64,000 nucleotides of DNA from Marixanthomonas ophiurae (GTDB taxonomy: Bacteria > Bacteroidota > Bacteroidia > Flavobacteriales > Flavobacteriaceae), in NCBI RefSeq assembly GCF_003413745.1, contig NZ_QVID01000001.1, positions 1,674,001 through 1,738,000 of the forward strand, given 5' to 3'. The notes under the pieces were generated by a model. The model was given only the letters and a program-made list of their open reading frames with translations. It had not been told where the DNA came from and did no database searches. Positions 38,916 through 50,930 of the stretch are shown piece by piece; within the stretch, counting starts at the first letter, position 1; the number at the start of each line of letters is the position of its first letter. The position numbers and the translations under genes are program-made.

Positions 38916-40748
38916 TTATTGTTTTGTGGTAATTTCAACAACCCCGTTAACCCCTTTTCCGCCATATTTTTTTAGTGCTTTTTTACCTTTTAGCACGTTT
39001 ATTTTTTCAATGGCATCTGGAGATAGTAGTTTTAAAGCTTTTTTAGGAGTTTCTTTTCCATCAACGTAATAAACAGGGTCTTTATTTTTTATATCAGTTT
39101 TGTATTTTACAACCGTCCCTGCTTCGTTAACATAATTTCCGTCTTTATTTATCTGAAAACGGTTTCCGTTAACTTTAAAGTAGCTAGAGTCTTTCATAAC
39201 ATTCATTCGTAGCCTTGCATCAATTTTCATTTCTTTCATCTTTTTTTTCATTACTTCCATACGCTCCTTTTGCACCGTTTCCATTTCTTCTTGACGTTCT
39301 TTCATCTGCTCTTTTACCTTTTCCATTTCCGATTTGCGTTGTGAAATCATTTCATCACGCTGTGCCATCATTTCATCACGCTGTGCCATCATTTTTTGAC
39401 GCTGCATTTTTTGTTCTTCGGTTAGAACAGTCCTCGAACTGATGGCTCCATTTTCTGAAACAGCGAGAACAAAATTATTTATTGGCTGACCACTACTCAC
39501 GCTATAATTATTGTTATTACCCCGTTTATCACTATAAGCAATAGAAATACTAGTAATTTCCCCTTTACTATTAAAGTTTAGGTTGCTATAATTAAAAGTA
39601 GCGTTGTGTTCTTTTTTAAGTCTTTGCTTATATGCTTCTAGCTCTTCAACTGTTGTGTTTTTAGTGATATGTACTTGAAATCCTTTTACTGAATCTTGCT
39701 GAATAGTATTGTTTCTTTTTTCCGAAGAAAGAGAAGGTGTTACATTACTATTGTTTGTTGACTTTACTGAAGCACTCGTTTTATTATCTGGCTTACTTGC
39801 GGTATAGGATATTTGTTGTTTTTTTGAAATGTCCTTTTCATTTTTTTGATTAGTATTAACAACTGAGGATGGTTTAGCCTCTGCGTACTGTACTTTTTTA
39901 TTAACATTAAAACTCCAGAGGAACAAAGCCAATAAAGGCAGGATCGTGGTAAGTTTTAACGCATTTACTTTTTTTGAATTCTTTTTGTTTAACATAACGA
40001 TTCGTTTTTTAGTGAATGATTGATAAAAATTAGTAGTCAACGCTGGAATAGTAGAAGCAGATGAGGCTTTCACCAACGCTATTTGGTATTCTTTTTTTGA
40101 AGAAACCATAGCAACGGTTTCTTGGTCGGCAATGTATTCCAGATTTTCTTTCACACTTTTCTTATAAAACCAAGCAATGGGGTTGACCCATTGAAATTGG
40201 GTTATTAGGTTGGCTACTAAAATATCTATAGAATGCCATTGGTGCGCATGTACTTTTTCATGATTTAATATCATAGCAAGTTCTTCTTCACTGTGTAATG
40301 AAGGATTGTAGACTATATAATTAAAAAACGAAAATGGGAGGATAGTTTCATTTATAGCAATGTATTTGAAACCATTTTTGGTAGTATTGGGATGCTTTTT
40401 TAACAGTAACAGTAGCGAAAAAAGTTGTTTTAAAAACCGAATAAAAAATACAGCTGCAACTATGAAATAGAAAACCCCTGCAATGTACCACCAATCTATT
40501 TGTTGAGGTGTTGTTGCCAAATAAGCTGGAATTTCTTCAGAATATGCTGCTAAGTTTGTTTTGGGAGTGGAAATAGTAACTGTTTTGGTAAATTGAATAA
40601 TAGGAACAACAAAAGAAAGAAGGAGTCCGCTTATTAGAAATAGTCTGTTGGTTGTAAAATGAGTATCACTTTTTAAAAGTACCACATAAACGACATGGAA
40701 TAGCGAAAGGACTATTGCGGCTTTACCTATATATATAAGGATATCCAT
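38916..40748 (-). CDS. M56-family (BlaR1-like) membrane metallopeptidase with a TonB-plug-like tail
   Basis: 610 residues. The N-terminal part has four membrane helices and the zinc motif NHEKVHAHQWHS, the gluzincin site of BlaR1/MecR1-type sensors. A polar region follows, with a methionine-rich coiled coil of repeated AQRDEMM units (about 460-510). The C-terminus (about 545-610: VYYVDGKETPKKALKLL, GVNGVVEITTKQ) resembles a TonB-dependent receptor plug. It starts 1 base after the BlaI-type repressor stop. It would sense an envelope signal and trigger cleavage of the repressor (known for BlaR1; inferred here). Confidence 0.88.
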   Translation of the reverse strand: MDILIYIGKAAIVLSLFHVVYVVLLKSDTHFTTNRLFLISGLLLSFVVPIIQFTKTVTISTPKTNLAAYSEEIPAYLATTPQQIDWWYIAGVFYFIVAAVFFIRFLKQLFSLLLLLKKHPNTTKNGFKYIAINETILPFSFFNYIVYNPSLHSEEELAMILNHEKVHAHQWHSIDILVANLITQFQWVNPIAWFYKKSVKENLEYIADQETVAMVSSKKEYQIALVKASSASTIPALTTNFYQSFTKKRIVMLNKKNSKKVNALKLTTILPLLALFLWSFNVNKKVQYAEAKPSSVVNTNQKNEKDISKKQQISYTASKPDNKTSASVKSTNNSNVTPSLSSEKRNNTIQQDSVKGFQVHITKNTTVEELEAYKQRLKKEHNATFNYSNLNFNSKGEITSISIAYSDKRGNNNNYSVSSGQPINNFVLAVSENGAISSRTVLTEEQKMQRQKMMAQRDEMMAQRDEMISQRKSEMEKVKEQMKERQEEMETVQKERMEVMKKKMKEMKIDARLRMNVMKDSSYFKVNGNRFQINKDGNYVNEAGTVVKYKTDIKNKDPVYYVDGKETPKKALKLLSPDAIEKINVLKGKKALKKYGGKGVNGVVEITTKQ

Positions 40749-45054: not shown

Positions 45055-46071
45055 ATGAAAAAAGTGTTTTTTTGCGCAATCGCGCTAATGTTAGGAACTG
45101 CAGCTTTCGCTCAGTTTAACCAGAGTTTTGTAAATCAAACTGGTATTTTAAATGGATCTTCTGTAAATCAAGATGGTTTCTTGAACTTTAACTTTACAGA
45201 CCAATTAGGAATTTTAAATGCTTCTAATGTAGAGCAGGATGGAGCTTTAAACTTTTCTGATACAGACCAAATAGGTTTGGCTAACAGTTCAGACGTTGAC
45301 CAAGATGGTCTTGCAAACGGATCTACTGTACTTCAAGTTGGAGCGTTTAATGCTTCTACTGTTACTCAGTTAGGAATTGCAAACGGTTCTTCAGTAACTC
45401 AGTTAGGTATTGCAAACACATCTGATGTTGACCAGACAGGAGCTTTTAACGCATCTGATGTTGATCAGTTAGGAATTGCAAACGACTCTGATGTTGACCA
45501 AATTGGTATTGCAAACGATTCTGATGTTGATCAAACTGGAGCGTTTAACTCTTCTACTGTAGGGCAGTTGGGTATCGGTAACCAATCTGATGTAACTCAA
45601 ACTGGTCTTGGAAACAACTCTACTGTAACTCAAATAGGAATTGCAAACAATTCTGATGTTGACCAAACAGGACTTGGAAATGGATCTAGCGTTCTACAAT
45701 TAGGAATTGGTAACCAATCTGATGTTGATCAAATAGGAGCTTTTAACGGTTCTGCTGTTAATCAATTAGGTATTGCAAATAACTCTACTGTAGGTCAGTT
45801 AGGTATTGCAAATACTTCATTAGTAAACCAAGCTGGAATAGCAAATGGTTCTATAGTTGGACAATTAGGAATTGCTAACGATTCAGAAGTAAACCAATTA
45901 GGATTGGCTAACGGTAGCCTTGTATTACAAGCAGGTGTATTAAACACATCTCTTGTTAACCAAGCTGGTGCTTTAAACGGTAGCATTGTATTACAAAGCG
46001 GGTTAGGACACAACAGTGTTGTTAACCAATTAGGTGTAGCTAATGGATCATTGGTTGTTCAAAGCAACTAA
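45055..46071 (+). CDS. csgA: Curli-type major amyloid subunit (CsgA-like, 28 x 11-residue repeats)
   Basis: 338 residues: signal peptide (1-20), a 9-residue lead, and then exactly 28 contiguous 11-residue repeats ending one residue before the C-terminus. Consensus is G-h-x-N-x-S-x-V-x-Q-x, where h is I, L, A, V or F (for example GIANDSDVDQI). N, S and Q are the inward-facing residues of curlin strands, so each unit should be one strand of a beta-solenoid. After the signal there is no Lys, Arg, Cys, Trp or Tyr; Asp is the main charge. E. coli CsgA has five repeats of about 22 residues. The downstream csgB/E/F/G set supports the assignment. Confidence 0.92.
   Translation: MKKVFFCAIALMLGTAAFAQFNQSFVNQTGILNGSSVNQDGFLNFNFTDQLGILNASNVEQDGALNFSDTDQIGLANSSDVDQDGLANGSTVLQVGAFNASTVTQLGIANGSSVTQLGIANTSDVDQTGAFNASDVDQLGIANDSDVDQIGIANDSDVDQTGAFNSSTVGQLGIGNQSDVTQTGLGNNSTVTQIGIANNSDVDQTGLGNGSSVLQLGIGNQSDVDQIGAFNGSAVNQLGIANNSTVGQLGIANTSLVNQAGIANGSIVGQLGIANDSEVNQLGLANGSLVLQAGVLNTSLVNQAGALNGSIVLQSGLGHNSVVNQLGVANGSLVVQSN
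45142..46065 (+). repeat. 28 tandem 33-bp coding repeats inside csgA
   Basis: The 11-residue units are encoded by diverged 33-base repeats. Some neighbouring copies, such as the units around 45460-45530, are nearly identical, which suggests recent unit duplication. Confidence 0.9.
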
Positions 46072-46111
46072 GATATAGTTTAGTATAAACATATATCTTT
46101 TGAAATATTAA

Positions 46112-46147
46112 AAAGCATGGGGGCATTTTAAAAATGCCCTTATGCTT
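46112..46147 (+). other. Stable hairpin between csgA and csgB
   Basis: AAGCAT...GGGCATTTT pairs with AAAATGCCC...ATGCTT. It is followed by AATTAAAAG, not a T-run. It may protect or end the csgA message while letting some transcripts continue into csgB-G. Confidence 0.65.
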
Positions 46148-46217
46148 AATTAAAAGACAATAAATTCTTATATTTACTTAAAGAATTGTTGTTTTATAAC
46201 AATAAAAAGCAATAGAG

Positions 46218-46745
46218 ATGAAAAATTTAACTAAAATACTGTTTGTACTAGTGTTTTCATTTTTTAGTATTGCTACTGCATTCTCCCAAACTTACTCGAA
46301 GGAAAACCAAAATGCTATTGAAAACCTTCAAAATAAAGCTGTTCAGCTTAACTATATATCTTCCCAACAATCACAAATTAACGCTACAAGGAGTACAGTA
46401 GCAACTGCTAATAATGTATTTGTACAACAAGTCGGAAACTATAACAGAATAGTTTCAAATACAAAATCTGATAGAAGTGATATCAATCTTTTTCAGAATG
46501 GAAACAACAATGATATTTTTTTGAAAATCAATGCCGGTACTATTAATGAAAAAGTAGTGCAAAATGGCAATAACCATAGCTTTATAGATTTTAGCCCTTT
46601 ACGTTCAAATGTTCACGAAGGACAGATTTTACAAACGGGCAATGGTCAAAACTTAAGGTGGTATGGATCTAATTCCCTTTCAGAAAAGCTAAAAGTATCA
46701 ATGAAAGGAAATGGGCAAACCCTTACTATCCGTAATTTTAATTAA
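46218..46745 (+). CDS. csgB: Curlin-repeat protein, probable CsgB-like nucleator
   Basis: 175 residues with a signal peptide (1-23). After a helical, polar N-terminal stretch (25-65) come about five irregular curlin motifs: FVQQVGNYNRI, LFQNGNNNDI, VVQNGNNHSFI, ILQTGNGQNLRW and MKGNGQTLTI. The repeats are longer (about 22-24 residues) and contain Lys, Arg and Trp, in contrast to the uncharged, regular csgA product. That contrast and the gene order fit the surface nucleator that seeds the major subunit, which is an inference. It ends 2 bases before the CsgE-like start. Confidence 0.8.
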   Translation: MKNLTKILFVLVFSFFSIATAFSQTYSKENQNAIENLQNKAVQLNYISSQQSQINATRSTVATANNVFVQQVGNYNRIVSNTKSDRSDINLFQNGNNNDIFLKINAGTINEKVVQNGNNHSFIDFSPLRSNVHEGQILQTGNGQNLRWYGSNSLSEKLKVSMKGNGQTLTIRNFN

Positions 46746-46747
46746 AC

Positions 46748-47533
46748 ATGTTTTGTATAGTGCACACATACAGCATACTAATGCTTATGTTGCTATGTTC
46801 AATAAATGCTTTTTCTCAATTTTATAATAAAGAGGTAGAAGCTAAAATTGAAACAGTGACTAATACAGAGTTTATTGAGATTTCCGGTACTGCTTTAAAT
46901 AAGACCAATGTAGATCAAAGTCTTCGTTATGAGTTGTCTGTTTTCAAAAAAAGTTTGACTAGTAACTCGAAAACTAAGCAAAGTGGCAGGTTTGTTTTAA
47001 AAGCAGGTGAAAAGAAAGATTTGTCTAAAACCACTATAAATGCAAAAGAAAAAGATGAAATAATACTTTTACTTTTAATTTATGATATTCAAGATAACTT
47101 AATAGGTAAAGATCGAATTGTTTTTAACGATAAAAAGCCTGACACTAAAATCATTGCTGAGAAAATAGATATTGAAACAGATAAAGCTGAAAGTGTTGAT
47201 GGTGATGTTAATAGAACCAGTTATGGAATTGAATTAAAAGGAATTGTCGTAGAAGAAACTAAAACCAAACCAGGACGCGATTTTTTTAAAATGTTTTCTT
47301 CAAAATATAATTTTTATAAAATAAATGGAGAAAAAGTAGTCACTGTTAGCGAAGTCTTGGCATTAGGTATTAATACCAAAATAGAAATTGAAGTTGGTGA
47401 TAAAGTGGTTTTGGAGTTTTTTCTTAGCCCCAGAAATGAGTACTTAAAGACCATGGCAGATCAAGCCATAAACGTGGTAAATAGATATTTTATAAATTTA
47501 CGTAACGATAAAGAACAAATAAACAGATATTAA
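46748..47533 (+). CDS. csgE: CsgE-domain secretion factor with an N-terminal CsgC/CsgH-like domain
   Basis: 261 residues. After a signal peptide (1-23) residues about 28-127 resemble the immunoglobulin-like CsgH/CsgC fold: LRYELSVFKKSL, TKQSGRFVLKAGEKKDLS and IILLLLIYD. Residues about 155-255 are CsgE: GIELKGIVVEETKTKPGRDFFKMFSSKYNFY and VGDKVVLEFFLSPRNEYL. CsgE caps the CsgG pore and selects cargo. CsgC/CsgH proteins stop subunits polymerising in the periplasm. Joining the two would put chaperone and gate in one protein. It starts 2 bases after csgB and ends 11 bases before csgF. Confidence 0.85.
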   Translation: MFCIVHTYSILMLMLLCSINAFSQFYNKEVEAKIETVTNTEFIEISGTALNKTNVDQSLRYELSVFKKSLTSNSKTKQSGRFVLKAGEKKDLSKTTINAKEKDEIILLLLIYDIQDNLIGKDRIVFNDKKPDTKIIAEKIDIETDKAESVDGDVNRTSYGIELKGIVVEETKTKPGRDFFKMFSSKYNFYKINGEKVVTVSEVLALGINTKIEIEVGDKVVLEFFLSPRNEYLKTMADQAINVVNRYFINLRNDKEQINRY

Positions 47534-47544
47534 CAACCTAAAAA

Positions 47545-47946
47545 ATGAAAAATTTTATACCCCTTATTATTTTTTTAATAGCAACTGCTTCTTATGGACA
47601 ACAACTTGTTTACAAGCCTGTAAACCCTAATTTTGGTGGAGACCCTTTCAATTACCAAATGTTGTTGAGCTCTGCGGATGCCCAAAACACTTTTAAAGAT
47701 CCATCTTTACAAGAAGATGAACAGTCTGAACTTGATGCATTTAAAGAAAGTTTAAATAGACAATTATTAGATCAGATTTCTAGTCAATTGCTTATTGAGC
47801 AACTTGGTGACGATGTTTTAGCTCCAGGAACCTCAAATTTTGGAAGCTTAGAGTTAGAAGTGTATGAGTCTTCTGAAGGATTAGTAATAAATATATTAGA
47901 TACCAGCAATGGTGATCAAACCCAAATTGTAGTGCCAACAAATTAA
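47545..47946 (+). CDS. csgF: Curli assembly protein CsgF
   Basis: 133 residues with a signal peptide (1-18) followed at once by LVYKPVNPNFGGDPFNYQMLLSSADAQN. This is the CsgF N-terminal segment that, in E. coli, inserts into the CsgG channel and forms a second constriction. The remaining part is helical with a C-terminal beta region (LELEVYESSEGLVINILD). Length matches E. coli CsgF (138). It ends 5 bases before csgG. Confidence 0.92.
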   Translation: MKNFIPLIIFLIATASYGQQLVYKPVNPNFGGDPFNYQMLLSSADAQNTFKDPSLQEDEQSELDAFKESLNRQLLDQISSQLLIEQLGDDVLAPGTSNFGSLELEVYESSEGLVINILDTSNGDQTQIVVPTN

Positions 47947-47951
47947 AGCTT

Positions 47952-49367
47952 ATGATAAAAATCACAAAAAACATATTAATTGGTTGTAGCTTAATGATCT
48001 TAATGAGTTGTGGAGGGTATTTTAATCAACCGGTTGGTCCACAGAAAGCAAGAATAGGCGAAATTAGTTCACAAACCAAAAGACTGGAAGCTTTACCAGA
48101 ACCTGCCGAGCCTATAATTGTTGGGGTATACAATTTTAAAGACCAAACCGGACAGTATAAGTCTATAGAAGCTGGTAGTACATTTAGTACGGCAATAACC
48201 CAAGGCGCTACCACAATCCTTACCAAGGCTTTGGAAGACTCAAAATGGTTTAGGCCAATAGAGCGAGAAAACTTAAGTAATTTACTTAATGAAAGAAATA
48301 TTATTGAAACAACCAGAAAACAATATGCTGACCCTACAAACAAGGCTCCACAACGTTTAAATCCGTTACTGTTTGCAGGTATACTTTTAGAAGGCGGAGT
48401 GGTTTCTTATGATACAAATTTACTTACAGGAGGTGCTGGAGCAAGATATTTTGGAGTAGGCGGGTCAACACAATACCGTCAAGATAGAATTACTGTTTAC
48501 TTAAGAGCTATTTCGACCGGAAGCGGTGAAGTTTTAAAAACTGTATATGTTTCAAAAACTATTTTATCGCAAGCGGTAGACGTCGGTATTTTTAGATATG
48601 TAAACTTTAAAAGATTACTTGAGGCTGAAACGGGTTTCACTAAAAATGAACCCACACAACTTGCTGTACAAGCAGCTATAGAAAAAGCTGTAGAAATGCT
48701 TATTATAGAAGGTGTTCAAGATAAGTTGTGGTCTACCAAAGAAGGAGCAGAAAAAAATAAAGAACTAGTAGAAAGTTACCTTTTAGATAAAGAGTTGGAA
48801 GAGTCTACAGGGTTGTATGAACGTGCTTTTCAAAAAAATAACTATAACCATACTATTAACTTAGCTTTGGGATCAACCTATATAGATGGGGATTTTTCTA
48901 CAGCAGAACCAGATTTCAAATCAGAACTGGGCTATACTTATCATTTTACTCCAATGTTTGGTATTGGAGGTGACTTACAGTTATTTAGGTTGTACTCTTC
49001 ACCCAATAATAGATACTGGTGGTTGTCACAAAATTTAGATTTAAAACTGAGAGTGTTACCACACGATAAACTAACGCCTATTATTTATGGAGGTCCAGGC
49101 TTTATGGTTTTTGTTGATGATTCCCCTTCAAAATTTCTGCAAGAACTTGATTCTTTCTTTAAATTAAAAGCTGGACTTGGATTACAGTACAAATTATCAG
49201 AAAGGCTTTCTTTAGAATTAAATGGAGACTTTAATAAAGTGTTTTCAGACAAGATAGACAACGAGTTTCAAGGTACAAGAGACGATTTTTATTATAATTT
49301 TGGGTTTGGAGTCAATTATAACTTTGGTTTCGGCCAAAAGAAAGTTAAACCAAACAATGCTAAATAA
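47952..49367 (+). CDS. csgG: Curli secretion channel CsgG with a C-terminal outer-membrane barrel domain
   Basis: 471 residues. The lipobox gives Cys20 (MILMSCGGY). Residues about 50-262 are CsgG: VGVYNFKDQTGQYK, TILTKALEDSKWFRPIERENLSNLLNERNI, FAGILLEGGVVSYD and YLRAISTGSGEVLKTVYVSKT. E. coli CsgG (277 residues) ends there. Here a linker leads to about 165 further residues (300-463) of alternating amphipathic strands (LGYTYHFTPMFGIGGDLQLF, FKLKAGLGLQYKLSERLSLE, YYNFGFGVNYNFGFG), which look like an eight-stranded OmpA/OmpW-type barrel. A basic tail, KKVKPNNAK, closes it. Confidence 0.9.
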   Translation: MIKITKNILIGCSLMILMSCGGYFNQPVGPQKARIGEISSQTKRLEALPEPAEPIIVGVYNFKDQTGQYKSIEAGSTFSTAITQGATTILTKALEDSKWFRPIERENLSNLLNERNIIETTRKQYADPTNKAPQRLNPLLFAGILLEGGVVSYDTNLLTGGAGARYFGVGGSTQYRQDRITVYLRAISTGSGEVLKTVYVSKTILSQAVDVGIFRYVNFKRLLEAETGFTKNEPTQLAVQAAIEKAVEMLIIEGVQDKLWSTKEGAEKNKELVESYLLDKELEESTGLYERAFQKNNYNHTINLALGSTYIDGDFSTAEPDFKSELGYTYHFTPMFGIGGDLQLFRLYSSPNNRYWWLSQNLDLKLRVLPHDKLTPIIYGGPGFMVFVDDSPSKFLQELDSFFKLKAGLGLQYKLSERLSLELNGDFNKVFSDKIDNEFQGTRDDFYYNFGFGVNYNFGFGQKKVKPNNAK

Positions 49368-49373
49368 TTTGCT

Positions 49374-50876
49374 ATGAAAGCTAACTATATAAATATAACA
49401 CTATTCGGAATTCTATTTTTGCTCATTTTTTCTTGTAGCGAAGATAAAATTGGTGAAAACCAGACAGGTTCCATAACTGGAAAAGTTGTGGAAGTGGGTA
49501 CAAACACTCCTGTCGAAAATGCAAGGGTTTCATCACAGCCTTTAACGAGCACAATTTTTACAGATGAAACAGGAAAGTTCGTACTTGAAAATGTACCAGT
49601 TGGTGAATACTCAGTAGAAGCACGTAAAGATGGATTTTTAGGTGGTTTTGAACCAGCTAACGTAACTTCTAGTAAACCAGTAAATGTAATCTTTGAACTT
49701 GAACTATCAACAGCCGATAACAAGCCACCCTCTACACCTGTTTTGTTGTCACCTGGAGATGGTGTAACTTTGCAAAGTATAGAGGTTGAATTTGCTTGGG
49801 ACTCTACAGATCCAGATGATGATGATTTAACTTATTCAATAGAATTGCGAAATGATATTGACGAAGAGGTGTTAATGTTTGAAAATATAACAGACACTAC
49901 CTTTGTTTATTCAACATTAACTTTGGGTGCCAAATACTTTTGGCAAGTTACCGTAACAGATGAAATTAATGACCCTGTAAAAAGCCCAGTTCGCTCTTTT
50001 GATGTCATAAACGCACCGGTGGATAATAGATTTCTTTTTGTTAGAAACATAGATGGAAACAATGTAATATTCTCTGCAGATGAAGAAGGAGCAGAATTTC
50101 AGTTGACTTCAAAAGACAAAAATAGTTATAGACCAAGAAGAAATGTAGCAGCAAATAGAATTGCTTATTTACAGACCGACGGGGCAGATGTTGATATTTA
50201 TACAATGGCCCGTGATGGTACCGATAAACAACGTGTAACAAACCTTGTGAGGCCTAAAGGGTTTGACTTAGCCGAAATTAATATTTCTTGGCCACCTACC
50301 AGTGATATGATTTATTTTCCAAGGTTTGATAAGCTCTACAGAATAAACTCAAACGGACAAGGTTTGGACCAAGTATATAAAACCCCAGATGGTTCATTTA
50401 TCTCTGAAGTAGATGTAAGCGAAAACGATGATATTATTGCCCTAAAAACAAATAACATAAATGGATATGATATTTCTATATTTACTATAGATTTTGAAGG
50501 CAATGTGTTGAACAATATTCTTTCAGGAGTTGATGGTGGCGCAAGTGGTCTTAATCTTTCAGTTACCAATCAAATGGTACTTTATTCTTATGATGTTTCT
50601 GGCTATGAAAGCAATAATTATAGACGATTAAACTCTAGAATGTTTGTTTATGATATGGTTGAAGATACAAATACCGATATTTCTGATCAAAAACCAAACG
50701 GCACCAATGACCTAGAGCCAATATTTTCACCAAATGAAGCTGAAGTTATTTTTACAAACACTTCAAATGATGGTATATCGCAAAGAGATATTTATACAGT
50801 AGAAGTAGATCCAGGTGAACAAGGTGTTGAACGCTTATTACTATATGAAAATGCTTTTATGCCCGATTGGGAATAA
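49374..50876 (+). CDS. Curli-operon lipoprotein: carboxypeptidase-like, Ig/FN3-like and beta-propeller domains
   Basis: 500 residues. The lipobox Cys21 (LLIFSCSED) is followed by a carboxypeptidase regulatory-like domain (32-111: TGSITGKVVEVGTNTPVENARV), an Ig/FN3-like domain (about 117-212: PPSTPVLLSPGDG, YFWQVTVTDE) and a WD40/TolB-like beta-propeller (about 218-500) with blade motifs such as DIYTMARDGTDKQRVTN and DIYTVEVDPGEQGVERL. It starts 6 bases after csgG and ends at the operon terminator, so it belongs to the curli operon. No E. coli Csg protein resembles it. A surface role in anchoring or shaping the fibre is inferred. Confidence 0.82.
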   Translation: MKANYINITLFGILFLLIFSCSEDKIGENQTGSITGKVVEVGTNTPVENARVSSQPLTSTIFTDETGKFVLENVPVGEYSVEARKDGFLGGFEPANVTSSKPVNVIFELELSTADNKPPSTPVLLSPGDGVTLQSIEVEFAWDSTDPDDDDLTYSIELRNDIDEEVLMFENITDTTFVYSTLTLGAKYFWQVTVTDEINDPVKSPVRSFDVINAPVDNRFLFVRNIDGNNVIFSADEEGAEFQLTSKDKNSYRPRRNVAANRIAYLQTDGADVDIYTMARDGTDKQRVTNLVRPKGFDLAEINISWPPTSDMIYFPRFDKLYRINSNGQGLDQVYKTPDGSFISEVDVSENDDIIALKTNNINGYDISIFTIDFEGNVLNNILSGVDGGASGLNLSVTNQMVLYSYDVSGYESNNYRRLNSRMFVYDMVEDTNTDISDQKPNGTNDLEPIFSPNEAEVIFTNTSNDGISQRDIYTVEVDPGEQGVERLLLYENAFMPDWE

Positions 50877-50898
50877 TATAATGACTAACCAAAATTAA

Positions 50899-50930
50899 AA
50901 AAGCGTCCTGCATTTCCGGGACGTTTTTTA
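50899..50930 (+). terminator. Terminator of the curli operon
   Basis: GCGTCC and GGACGT arms with a TTTTTT tail. Confidence 0.85.

Follow-up and report, generated by a model that had tools for sequence, protein, structure and literature searches.

A complete curli operon in Marixanthomonas ophiurae, typical of its order, with an extended CsgE, a long CsgG and a lipoprotein encoded by its sixth gene

The mechanism of curli export is known mainly from Escherichia coli and Salmonella, and the CsgG-type pore family is also used in nanopore sequencing. In E. coli, CsgE caps the CsgG pore as a 9:9 complex, and low ratios of CsgC are enough to inhibit the formation of fibres (PMC5135000; this and the other papers are cited from the portions of their text available to us). 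CsgC and CsgH, two types defined by their cysteines, are reported to act via a positive patch, and CsgH-like sequences also occur in Bacteroidetes, with no mention of a fusion in the available portions of that paper (Taylor et al., 2016; PMC4838910). CsgD has been reported absent in Bacteroidetes except Spirosoma (PMC3521004), and the very acidic curlin R15.5 of Pontibacter korlensis forms curli-like fibres in vitro and binds thioflavin T (ThT) poorly (PMC10192328). Here we describe a six-gene curli operon at positions 45055-50876 of a 64,000-nucleotide stretch of Marixanthomonas ophiurae DNA (contig NZ_QVID01000001.1, positions 1,674,001 to 1,738,000, forward strand), which we call the window. 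Its membership in the curli systems is secure on sequence grounds, and the operon is probably a variant of type VIII (curli) secretion that is typical of its lineage and usual in its order, rather than a new system.

Layout and distribution of the operon

Six open reading frames (ORFs), all on the + strand like every feature given below unless stated, make up 45055-50876. The ORF list confirmed the coordinates of an earlier note on this DNA together with its description of six genes in one orientation, separated by 2-11 bases from csgB on: from gene 1 to gene 6, the intergenic gaps are 146, 2, 11, 5 and 6 bases. The earlier note had also recognized CsgE, CsgF and CsgG and had proposed checking them against Pfam hidden Markov models, all of which matched. 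In gene 3, Pfam CsgE (PF10627, 2.9e-13) is confined to residues 163-256 of 261 amino acids (47234..47515), and a solved CsgE chain matched at 1.3e-16. Gene 4 (csgF, 47545..47946, 133 amino acids) matched Pfam CsgF (PF10614, 2.7e-34) and a solved CsgF chain (1.1e-11), and holds an NPNFGG stretch common to the solved CsgF chains. Gene 5 (csgG, 47952..49367, 471 amino acids) matched Pfam CsgG (PF03783, 8.7e-65) and CsgG in the PDB (4.2e-93), and this is the single CsgG match of its genome. Gene 1 matched the curlin repeat (Curlin_rpt, PF07012, 5.7e-18).

We surveyed the neighbourhood of the operon in a family sample of 100 genomes, its own included, and in a phylum sample of 395 genomes. The extended CsgE, referred to below as the fusion protein, was found in 21 of the 100 family genomes; the sixth-gene lipoprotein (E 1e-10 or better) occurred in the same 21 and in none of the other 79. 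The order csgB-csgE-csgF-csgG-lipoprotein recurred in all 20 other family loci, with csgA matches directly before this block in 16 of them and none within the slice for the other four. Gaps within the block were at most 50 bases in 83 of 84 cases, window included. As the family loci were retrieved with the fused protein as query, this set favours fused forms; a set picked through CsgF is free of that bias. CsgF was present in 50 of the 395 phylum genomes (45 over the cut-off), and all of these but the window's own and one doubtful case gave 48 CsgF-picked loci, for a total of 71 loci (the window, L023-L044 and L075-L122). Most matches of the locus profiles arise by construction, the profiles having been built from these same loci; independent testing comes from the scans with Pfam and NCBIfam models.

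The fusion was found in 36 of the 71 loci and, among those picked through CsgF, in 13 of 15 from the window's order and 0 of 33 elsewhere. A long CsgG with a C-terminal barrel region was present in 63 of 71. The idea that the operon is peculiar to its source genome was rejected, since relatives' loci show the same order. By the same survey (20/20 family loci, 63/71 long CsgG), the claim that the architecture was specially rearranged here was not supported. Its companion, a machine "rebuilt by fusions", stands for CsgE (13/15 within the order, 0/33 outside) but is not special to this genome. Among named relatives, the nearest one detected was a Zunongwangia metagenome-assembled genome (L023; CsgE identity 78%), placed in Flavobacteriaceae by taxonomy look-up.

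One family group, f18 (seven loci, L115-L121), stood apart: its CsgG measures ~300 amino acids and is devoid of the barrel region, its CsgF is weak, and no fusion, CsgE or lipoprotein was found within its slices. L120 carries a separate 222-amino-acid frame with a weak barrel match (3e-06). This group is possibly a different curli-like type. L122, a weak CsgF match inside a 594-amino-acid frame with no CsgG, was scored as a miss.

As the earlier note had said, CsgD is lacking nearby: no csgD-like domain was detected at E 1e-5 in the ten neighbour genes scanned, the rest of the genome not being searched for it. Published work has noted since 2012 that Bacteroidetes lack csgC and csgD (PMC3521004).

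Curlin subunits and the csgA-csgB gap

The first gene (csgA, major curlin, 45055..46071) encodes 338 amino acids with a signal peptide and 27 strict QxGxxN motifs, whereas 1000 shuffles averaged 0.64 and never exceeded 4. Successive motifs lie 11 residues apart in 25 of 26 cases and 22 in the remaining one; the protein comprises ~14 double repeats. Residues 21-338 hold 26 D/E and zero K/R, and the CsgA-like proteins of the window, of L023-L044 and of the 15 loci of the window's order were net negative in 49 of 49 cases. A ThT test of the window's CsgA could be falsely negative, because the acidic Pontibacter curlin binds ThT poorly. At locus L034, a 1041-amino-acid curlin-like protein sits amid several curlins, and the largest motif count in that locus is 60.

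Gene 2 (46218..46745, 175 amino acids) had been counted as the second of two curlin-repeat proteins. This holds firmly for gene 1 (5.7e-18, 27 motifs), while gene 2 is weak when taken alone: it has no Pfam curlin match, its NCBIfam CsgA match (9.3e-06) scores 25.6 bits against a curated cut-off of 160, and its 2 strict motifs are also attained by shuffles (mean 0.18, maximum 2). With a looser motif it reaches 5, against a shuffle maximum of 4. Proteins of this type, the window's included (n = 39), have 2-5 strict motifs each. From its place and motifs, gene 2 is a csgB-like minor curlin and the probable nucleator.

The 146-base gap between these two genes (46072-46217) carries a hairpin with a 16-bp stem and a weak U-tail (46113..46147; folding z score -5.75). 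We folded the first 150 bases of the gap in 32 loci, skipping L035, L040 and L075 (gaps >600 bases), and obtained z < -2 in 29, an unbroken stem of at least 8 bp in 27 and one of at least 11 bp in 26. In controls of the same loci and lengths, the corresponding counts were 22, 22 and 16 after the lipoprotein gene, 6, 10 and 2 before the first csgA, and 1, 5 and 0 inside csgG. Given this excess of stems over the controls, the gap therefore resembles the end of a gene, and does so more clearly than the end of the operon itself. The latter has a terminator-like hairpin with a T-run (50898..50929) called by a terminator scan whose total of such sites was no higher than in shuffles.

We prefer to see the csgA-csgB hairpin as a partial terminator or an RNA end-protector, and it is likely a csgA 3' end or attenuator permitting an excess of csgA. 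The strongest competing explanation, to which we give a little less than even weight, is that the hairpin is a full terminator and csgA a separate transcription unit, with csgB to the lipoprotein gene under a promoter of their own. A 146-base gap with a 16-bp stem would suit such a boundary, as would the T-run that follows the stem in several relatives, the similar, lower stem excess at operon ends and the 4 of 20 family loci with no csgA match before csgB in the slice. Yet in the window AATTAAAAGA comes after the stem and makes a poor tail for a terminator, no + strand terminator was called at this stem, and promoter-like sites were no more numerous than in shuffles. Specifically, sigma-70-like sites did not exceed the shuffles, and the Bacteroidota-type promoter pattern TTTG-N17-23-TANNTTTG was not enriched and had no match upstream of csgA.

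Fused CsgE, long CsgG and the sixth-gene lipoprotein

Could this simply be a curli operon of the ordinary kind, one that the literature on Bacteroidetes has already described in full? Systems of that phylum lacking csgC and csgD have been reported (PMC3521004), and curli occur widely in Bacteroidota according to a survey of 2025 (PMC12822426). We nevertheless consider this unlikely, as the literature searched (subscription papers, figures and supplements lay outside the search) gave no description of CsgE fused to CsgH, of a barrel on CsgG or of the lipoprotein. For the earlier note's "undescribed variant system", this means that the three features were indeed not found described, but that they most likely belong to a curli variant typical of the lineage, with no new system involved. 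The extra domains on CsgE and CsgG and the extra lipoprotein that it had reported were all recovered, as a CsgC/CsgH-type domain, an OMP_b-brl domain and a sixth gene of 500 amino acids.

The csgE fusion gene (46748..47533, 261 amino acids) carries the CsgC/CsgH-type domain at residues 22-134 (46811..47149). Its N-terminal part matched NCBIfam CsgH (NF041112) with 37.4 bits against a cut-off of 35. When the domain was excised from 35 fused and 4 stand-alone proteins, NCBIfam CsgH matched at E ≤0.01 in 37 of the 39 (best 3.6e-17) and NCBIfam CsgC in 20, with Pfam CsgC and CsgH matching in 12 and 3, respectively. Of 56 CsgE proteins scanned at full length, 30 matched CsgH and 13 matched CsgC, and a profile of the N-terminal domain matched CsgC in the PDB at 2.5e-05. 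Homology of the gene 3 N-terminus to the CsgC/CsgH group is thus well supported by profile matches, and the Bacteroidetes CsgH-like sequences of Taylor et al. may be this very domain. The statement that there is no separate CsgC is literally right and at the same time misleading, as a CsgC/CsgH-type domain forms the N-terminal half of gene 3; simple loss of CsgC was rejected on the PDB CsgC and CsgH/CsgC model matches in that half.

The two halves also occur apart. L089, a locus of the same family as the window, has csgH and csgE as separate intact genes, and stand-alone csgH-like genes were found in L077, L082, L095, L098, L103 and L109; the two are therefore independent modules. L087 was rejected as a clean csgH/csgE split, no csgE being found there by profile. 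At L087:7479-8209 we noted an intact csgH-like gene and, by eye, a following CsgE that is open from a start codon as a 47-amino-acid piece only. Among 19 CsgE proteins from outside the window's order, seven (L079, L081, L085, L099, L101, L102 and L108) carry a LysM domain over the Pfam cut-off at the place of the CsgC/CsgH-type domain, and two more carry one below the cut-off. LysM is a peptidoglycan-binding domain.

Rather than a chaperone, the N-terminal domain might be a structural spacer or adaptor derived from CsgC/CsgH, no longer amyloid-inhibiting, whose only role is to fix how high the cap sits or to bind another partner. Cysteines are absent from all 35 fused domains, unlike CsgC/CsgH (the stand-alone copies of L077 and L082 have 2 each), positive net charge is not conserved (median -1, range -10 to 5), and the use of the same slot for LysM in 7 of 19 CsgE outside the order suggests that it may serve anchoring. 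We find this explanation doubtful all the same: over the 35 fused proteins the domain is conserved as well as the CsgE half (mean 0.52 for both, linker 0.17), the CsgH model still recognizes 37 of 39 domains, and in the window a domain of net charge +3 faces a CsgA of -26.

CsgG consists of a lipidated N-terminus (Cys20 followed by GGYFNQP, devoid of an acidic export signal), the pore domain (residues 48-263, 48093..48740) and a C-terminal domain of the outer-membrane beta-barrel type (residues 302-458, 48855..49325). The last matched Pfam OMP_b-brl (PF13505) at 8.5e-09, with 36.3 bits against a cut-off of 28.7, and the same family was found at E ≤0.01 in 44 of 63 long CsgG. Named matches in this region were weak: PorG with 26.1 bits (cut-off 130) and OprF at 0.0087 in the PDB.

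The sixth gene (49374..50876, 500 amino acids) encodes a curli-linked lipoprotein, built of beta-sandwich domains and a propeller, with three regions: a carboxypeptidase-regulatory-like domain (residues 33-109, 49470..49700; Pfam CarboxypepD_reg 3.8e-12), a fibronectin-III-like (Fn3) domain assigned by profile (~residues 113-212, 49710..50009) and, in its C-terminal half, a TolB-like beta-propeller, again by profile (~residues 216-500, 50019..50873). The 45 full-length relatives share a mean column identity of 45%; the regulatory-like domain was detected in 45/45 and Fn3 in 21/45, the window's own copy having no PF00041 match. Identity with full-length TolB was rejected (22.7 bits against a curated cut-off of 343.15), the likeness being in the propeller alone. 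Foldseek matches of a weak structural model, TolB (2.4e-09, TM 0.35 on the query) and chain B of the BtuB3G3 complex 8p97 (weak, rank 50), were obtained; the former was read as agreeing with the sequence match and no more, and 8p97 chain B is a surface propeller lipoprotein sitting on an outer-membrane transporter.

Lipoproteins of this phylum are sent to the surface by export signals such as SDDDD in B. fragilis and SDDFE in F. johnsoniae (PMC5080379), which Ser-Glu-Asp at +2 to +4 of the lipidated Cys21 resembles (49434..49445; CSEDKI). An acidic residue occurs at +3 in 44 and at +4 in 41 of the 45 full-length lipoproteins, and at neither position in any of 63 CsgG, only 2 of which have one acid anywhere in +2 to +6. 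These counts are alignment-based, since an approximate lipobox finder mis-set the cysteine in several rows, the window's CsgG included. By that finder, 10 of 13 short copies have at most one acid within +2 to +6; the signal therefore belongs to the full-length form. The sixth lipoprotein is probably surface-exposed, judging from this signal, and the contrast within the operon would fit CsgG lipids facing inward and the sixth protein facing outward.

The 48 CsgF-picked loci hold a full-length lipoprotein in 22 cases, a short copy with the propeller unmatched in 13, and none that we could see in 13, namely the seven of f18, the doubtful L122, and L085, L088, L100, L108 and L112. L088, L100, L108 and L112 have a lipoprotein match elsewhere in the genome or at the slice edge. 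At 1e-20, 52 of the 395 phylum genomes matched: the 24 in which the copy is full length all belong to the 50 genomes positive for CsgF, and 12, with partial matches, have no CsgF match. It is therefore the full-length protein that is linked to curli, not its single domains. Frames of 427-462 codons in G208, G254, G258, G293, G309 and G485 resemble the lipoprotein's N-terminal half (best match per genome ≤1e-36); these genomes have no CsgF match, and the frames represent relatives in a different context.

That the lipoprotein is a chance neighbour was rejected on its co-occurrence with curli genes. It could still be co-expressed with the operon as an independent surface binder, for ligand or matrix binding or for sensing, and take no part in secretion or anchoring. 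Folds often used for binding include the regulatory-like, Fn3 and propeller types, 13 of the 48 CsgF-picked loci hold only a short copy devoid of the propeller, and N-terminal-half matches exist in genomes with no CsgF match. Set against full-length copies in exactly those 21 of 100 genomes that have the fusion protein, a place behind csgG in all 20 family loci and the 45% column identity, this independent role seems improbable.

Proposed mechanism and comparison with known systems

We infer the functions of the fusion, barrel and lipoprotein from their sequences, in the following scheme. CsgA and CsgB would reach the periplasm unfolded via Sec, and the csgA-csgB hairpin would let the csgA transcript outnumber that of the machine genes. 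CsgE would cap a ninefold CsgG pore as in E. coli; fused to it, the chaperone would therefore be tethered at the gate rather than freely diffusing, and nine CsgC-like domains per pore could hang at the entrance and prevent CsgA from nucleating before it passes through. Each CsgG subunit would contribute one extra barrel, and these barrels might stand in the outer membrane round the pore as an insertion aid or a docking rim. CsgF would plug and mark the outer mouth as in E. coli, and the sixth lipoprotein, flipped to the outer leaflet, could hold with its propeller the fibre base, CsgB/CsgF or the barrel rim.

A bolder version would make this a distinct subtype of type VIII secretion, with the chaperone built into the ninefold cap, nine satellite barrels ringing the pore, a surface propeller lipoprotein placed over its outer mouth and anchoring or gating the fibre, and a CsgE N-terminal slot that is exchangeable, filled by a CsgH-type domain in this order and by LysM in other members of the phylum. 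We put this forward tentatively and would not yet bet on it; if true, the same gate could be equipped either with a chaperone or with an anchor to peptidoglycan. More generally, the natural joining of a CsgC/H domain to CsgE suggests that a single step may combine chaperoning with gating of the pore, an idea that can be tested directly. Both the barrel of CsgG and the curli-linked lipoprotein are candidates for new components of the secretion pore family.

Several results pull the other way. The window's N-terminal domain alone has no Pfam match, full-length gene 3 scores 14.4 bits with Pfam CsgC (cut-off 25), and the N-terminal-domain profile matches CsgH in the PDB only at 0.27; to these are added the missing cysteines and near-zero charge of the fused domains. 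Structure prediction from alignments of three sequences (window, L023 and L024) was unusable for CsgG (predicted local distance difference test score, pLDDT, 28.6) and was dropped, and it was weak for the lipoprotein (pLDDT 49.5). The poor acidic signal of most short lipoprotein copies and the 12 lipoprotein-matching genomes that lack CsgF count likewise, and the hairpin could be a full terminator.

The operon is flanked by one gene for a type III glutamine synthetase and one of the AIR-synthase type, and a BlaR1-type M56 peptidase gene lies upstream (38916-40748, minus strand).

Among described systems, BtuB3G3 (8p97) serves vitamin B12 uptake, not secretion, and its likeness to the window's lipoprotein is one of fold class only. 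Pontibacter korlensis R15.5 (PMC10192328), also from Bacteroidota, is very acidic and has many repeats like the window's CsgA; the available text of that work treats the subunit alone. The N-terminal half of gene 3 matches models of the CsgH/CsgC chaperone family (PMC4838910), yet it is fused to CsgE and lacks cysteines. The Bacteroidetes curli of Dueholm et al. (2012; PMC3521004) lack csgC and csgD and have a large, variable CsgA, as in the window, and the available portions of that paper make no mention of a fusion, barrel or lipoprotein. With E. coli curli (csgBAC/csgDEFG), the window shares curlin subunits, CsgE, CsgF and CsgG. It differs in forming one same-strand cluster with no csgD-like domain among ten neighbours, in a CsgA of ~14 double repeats, and in having CsgE joined to a CsgC-like domain, CsgG extended by a barrel-type domain and one additional lipoprotein. 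Altogether, the operon is real, complete and typical of its order; these last three lineage features are new against the literature examined, and the system itself is a known one.

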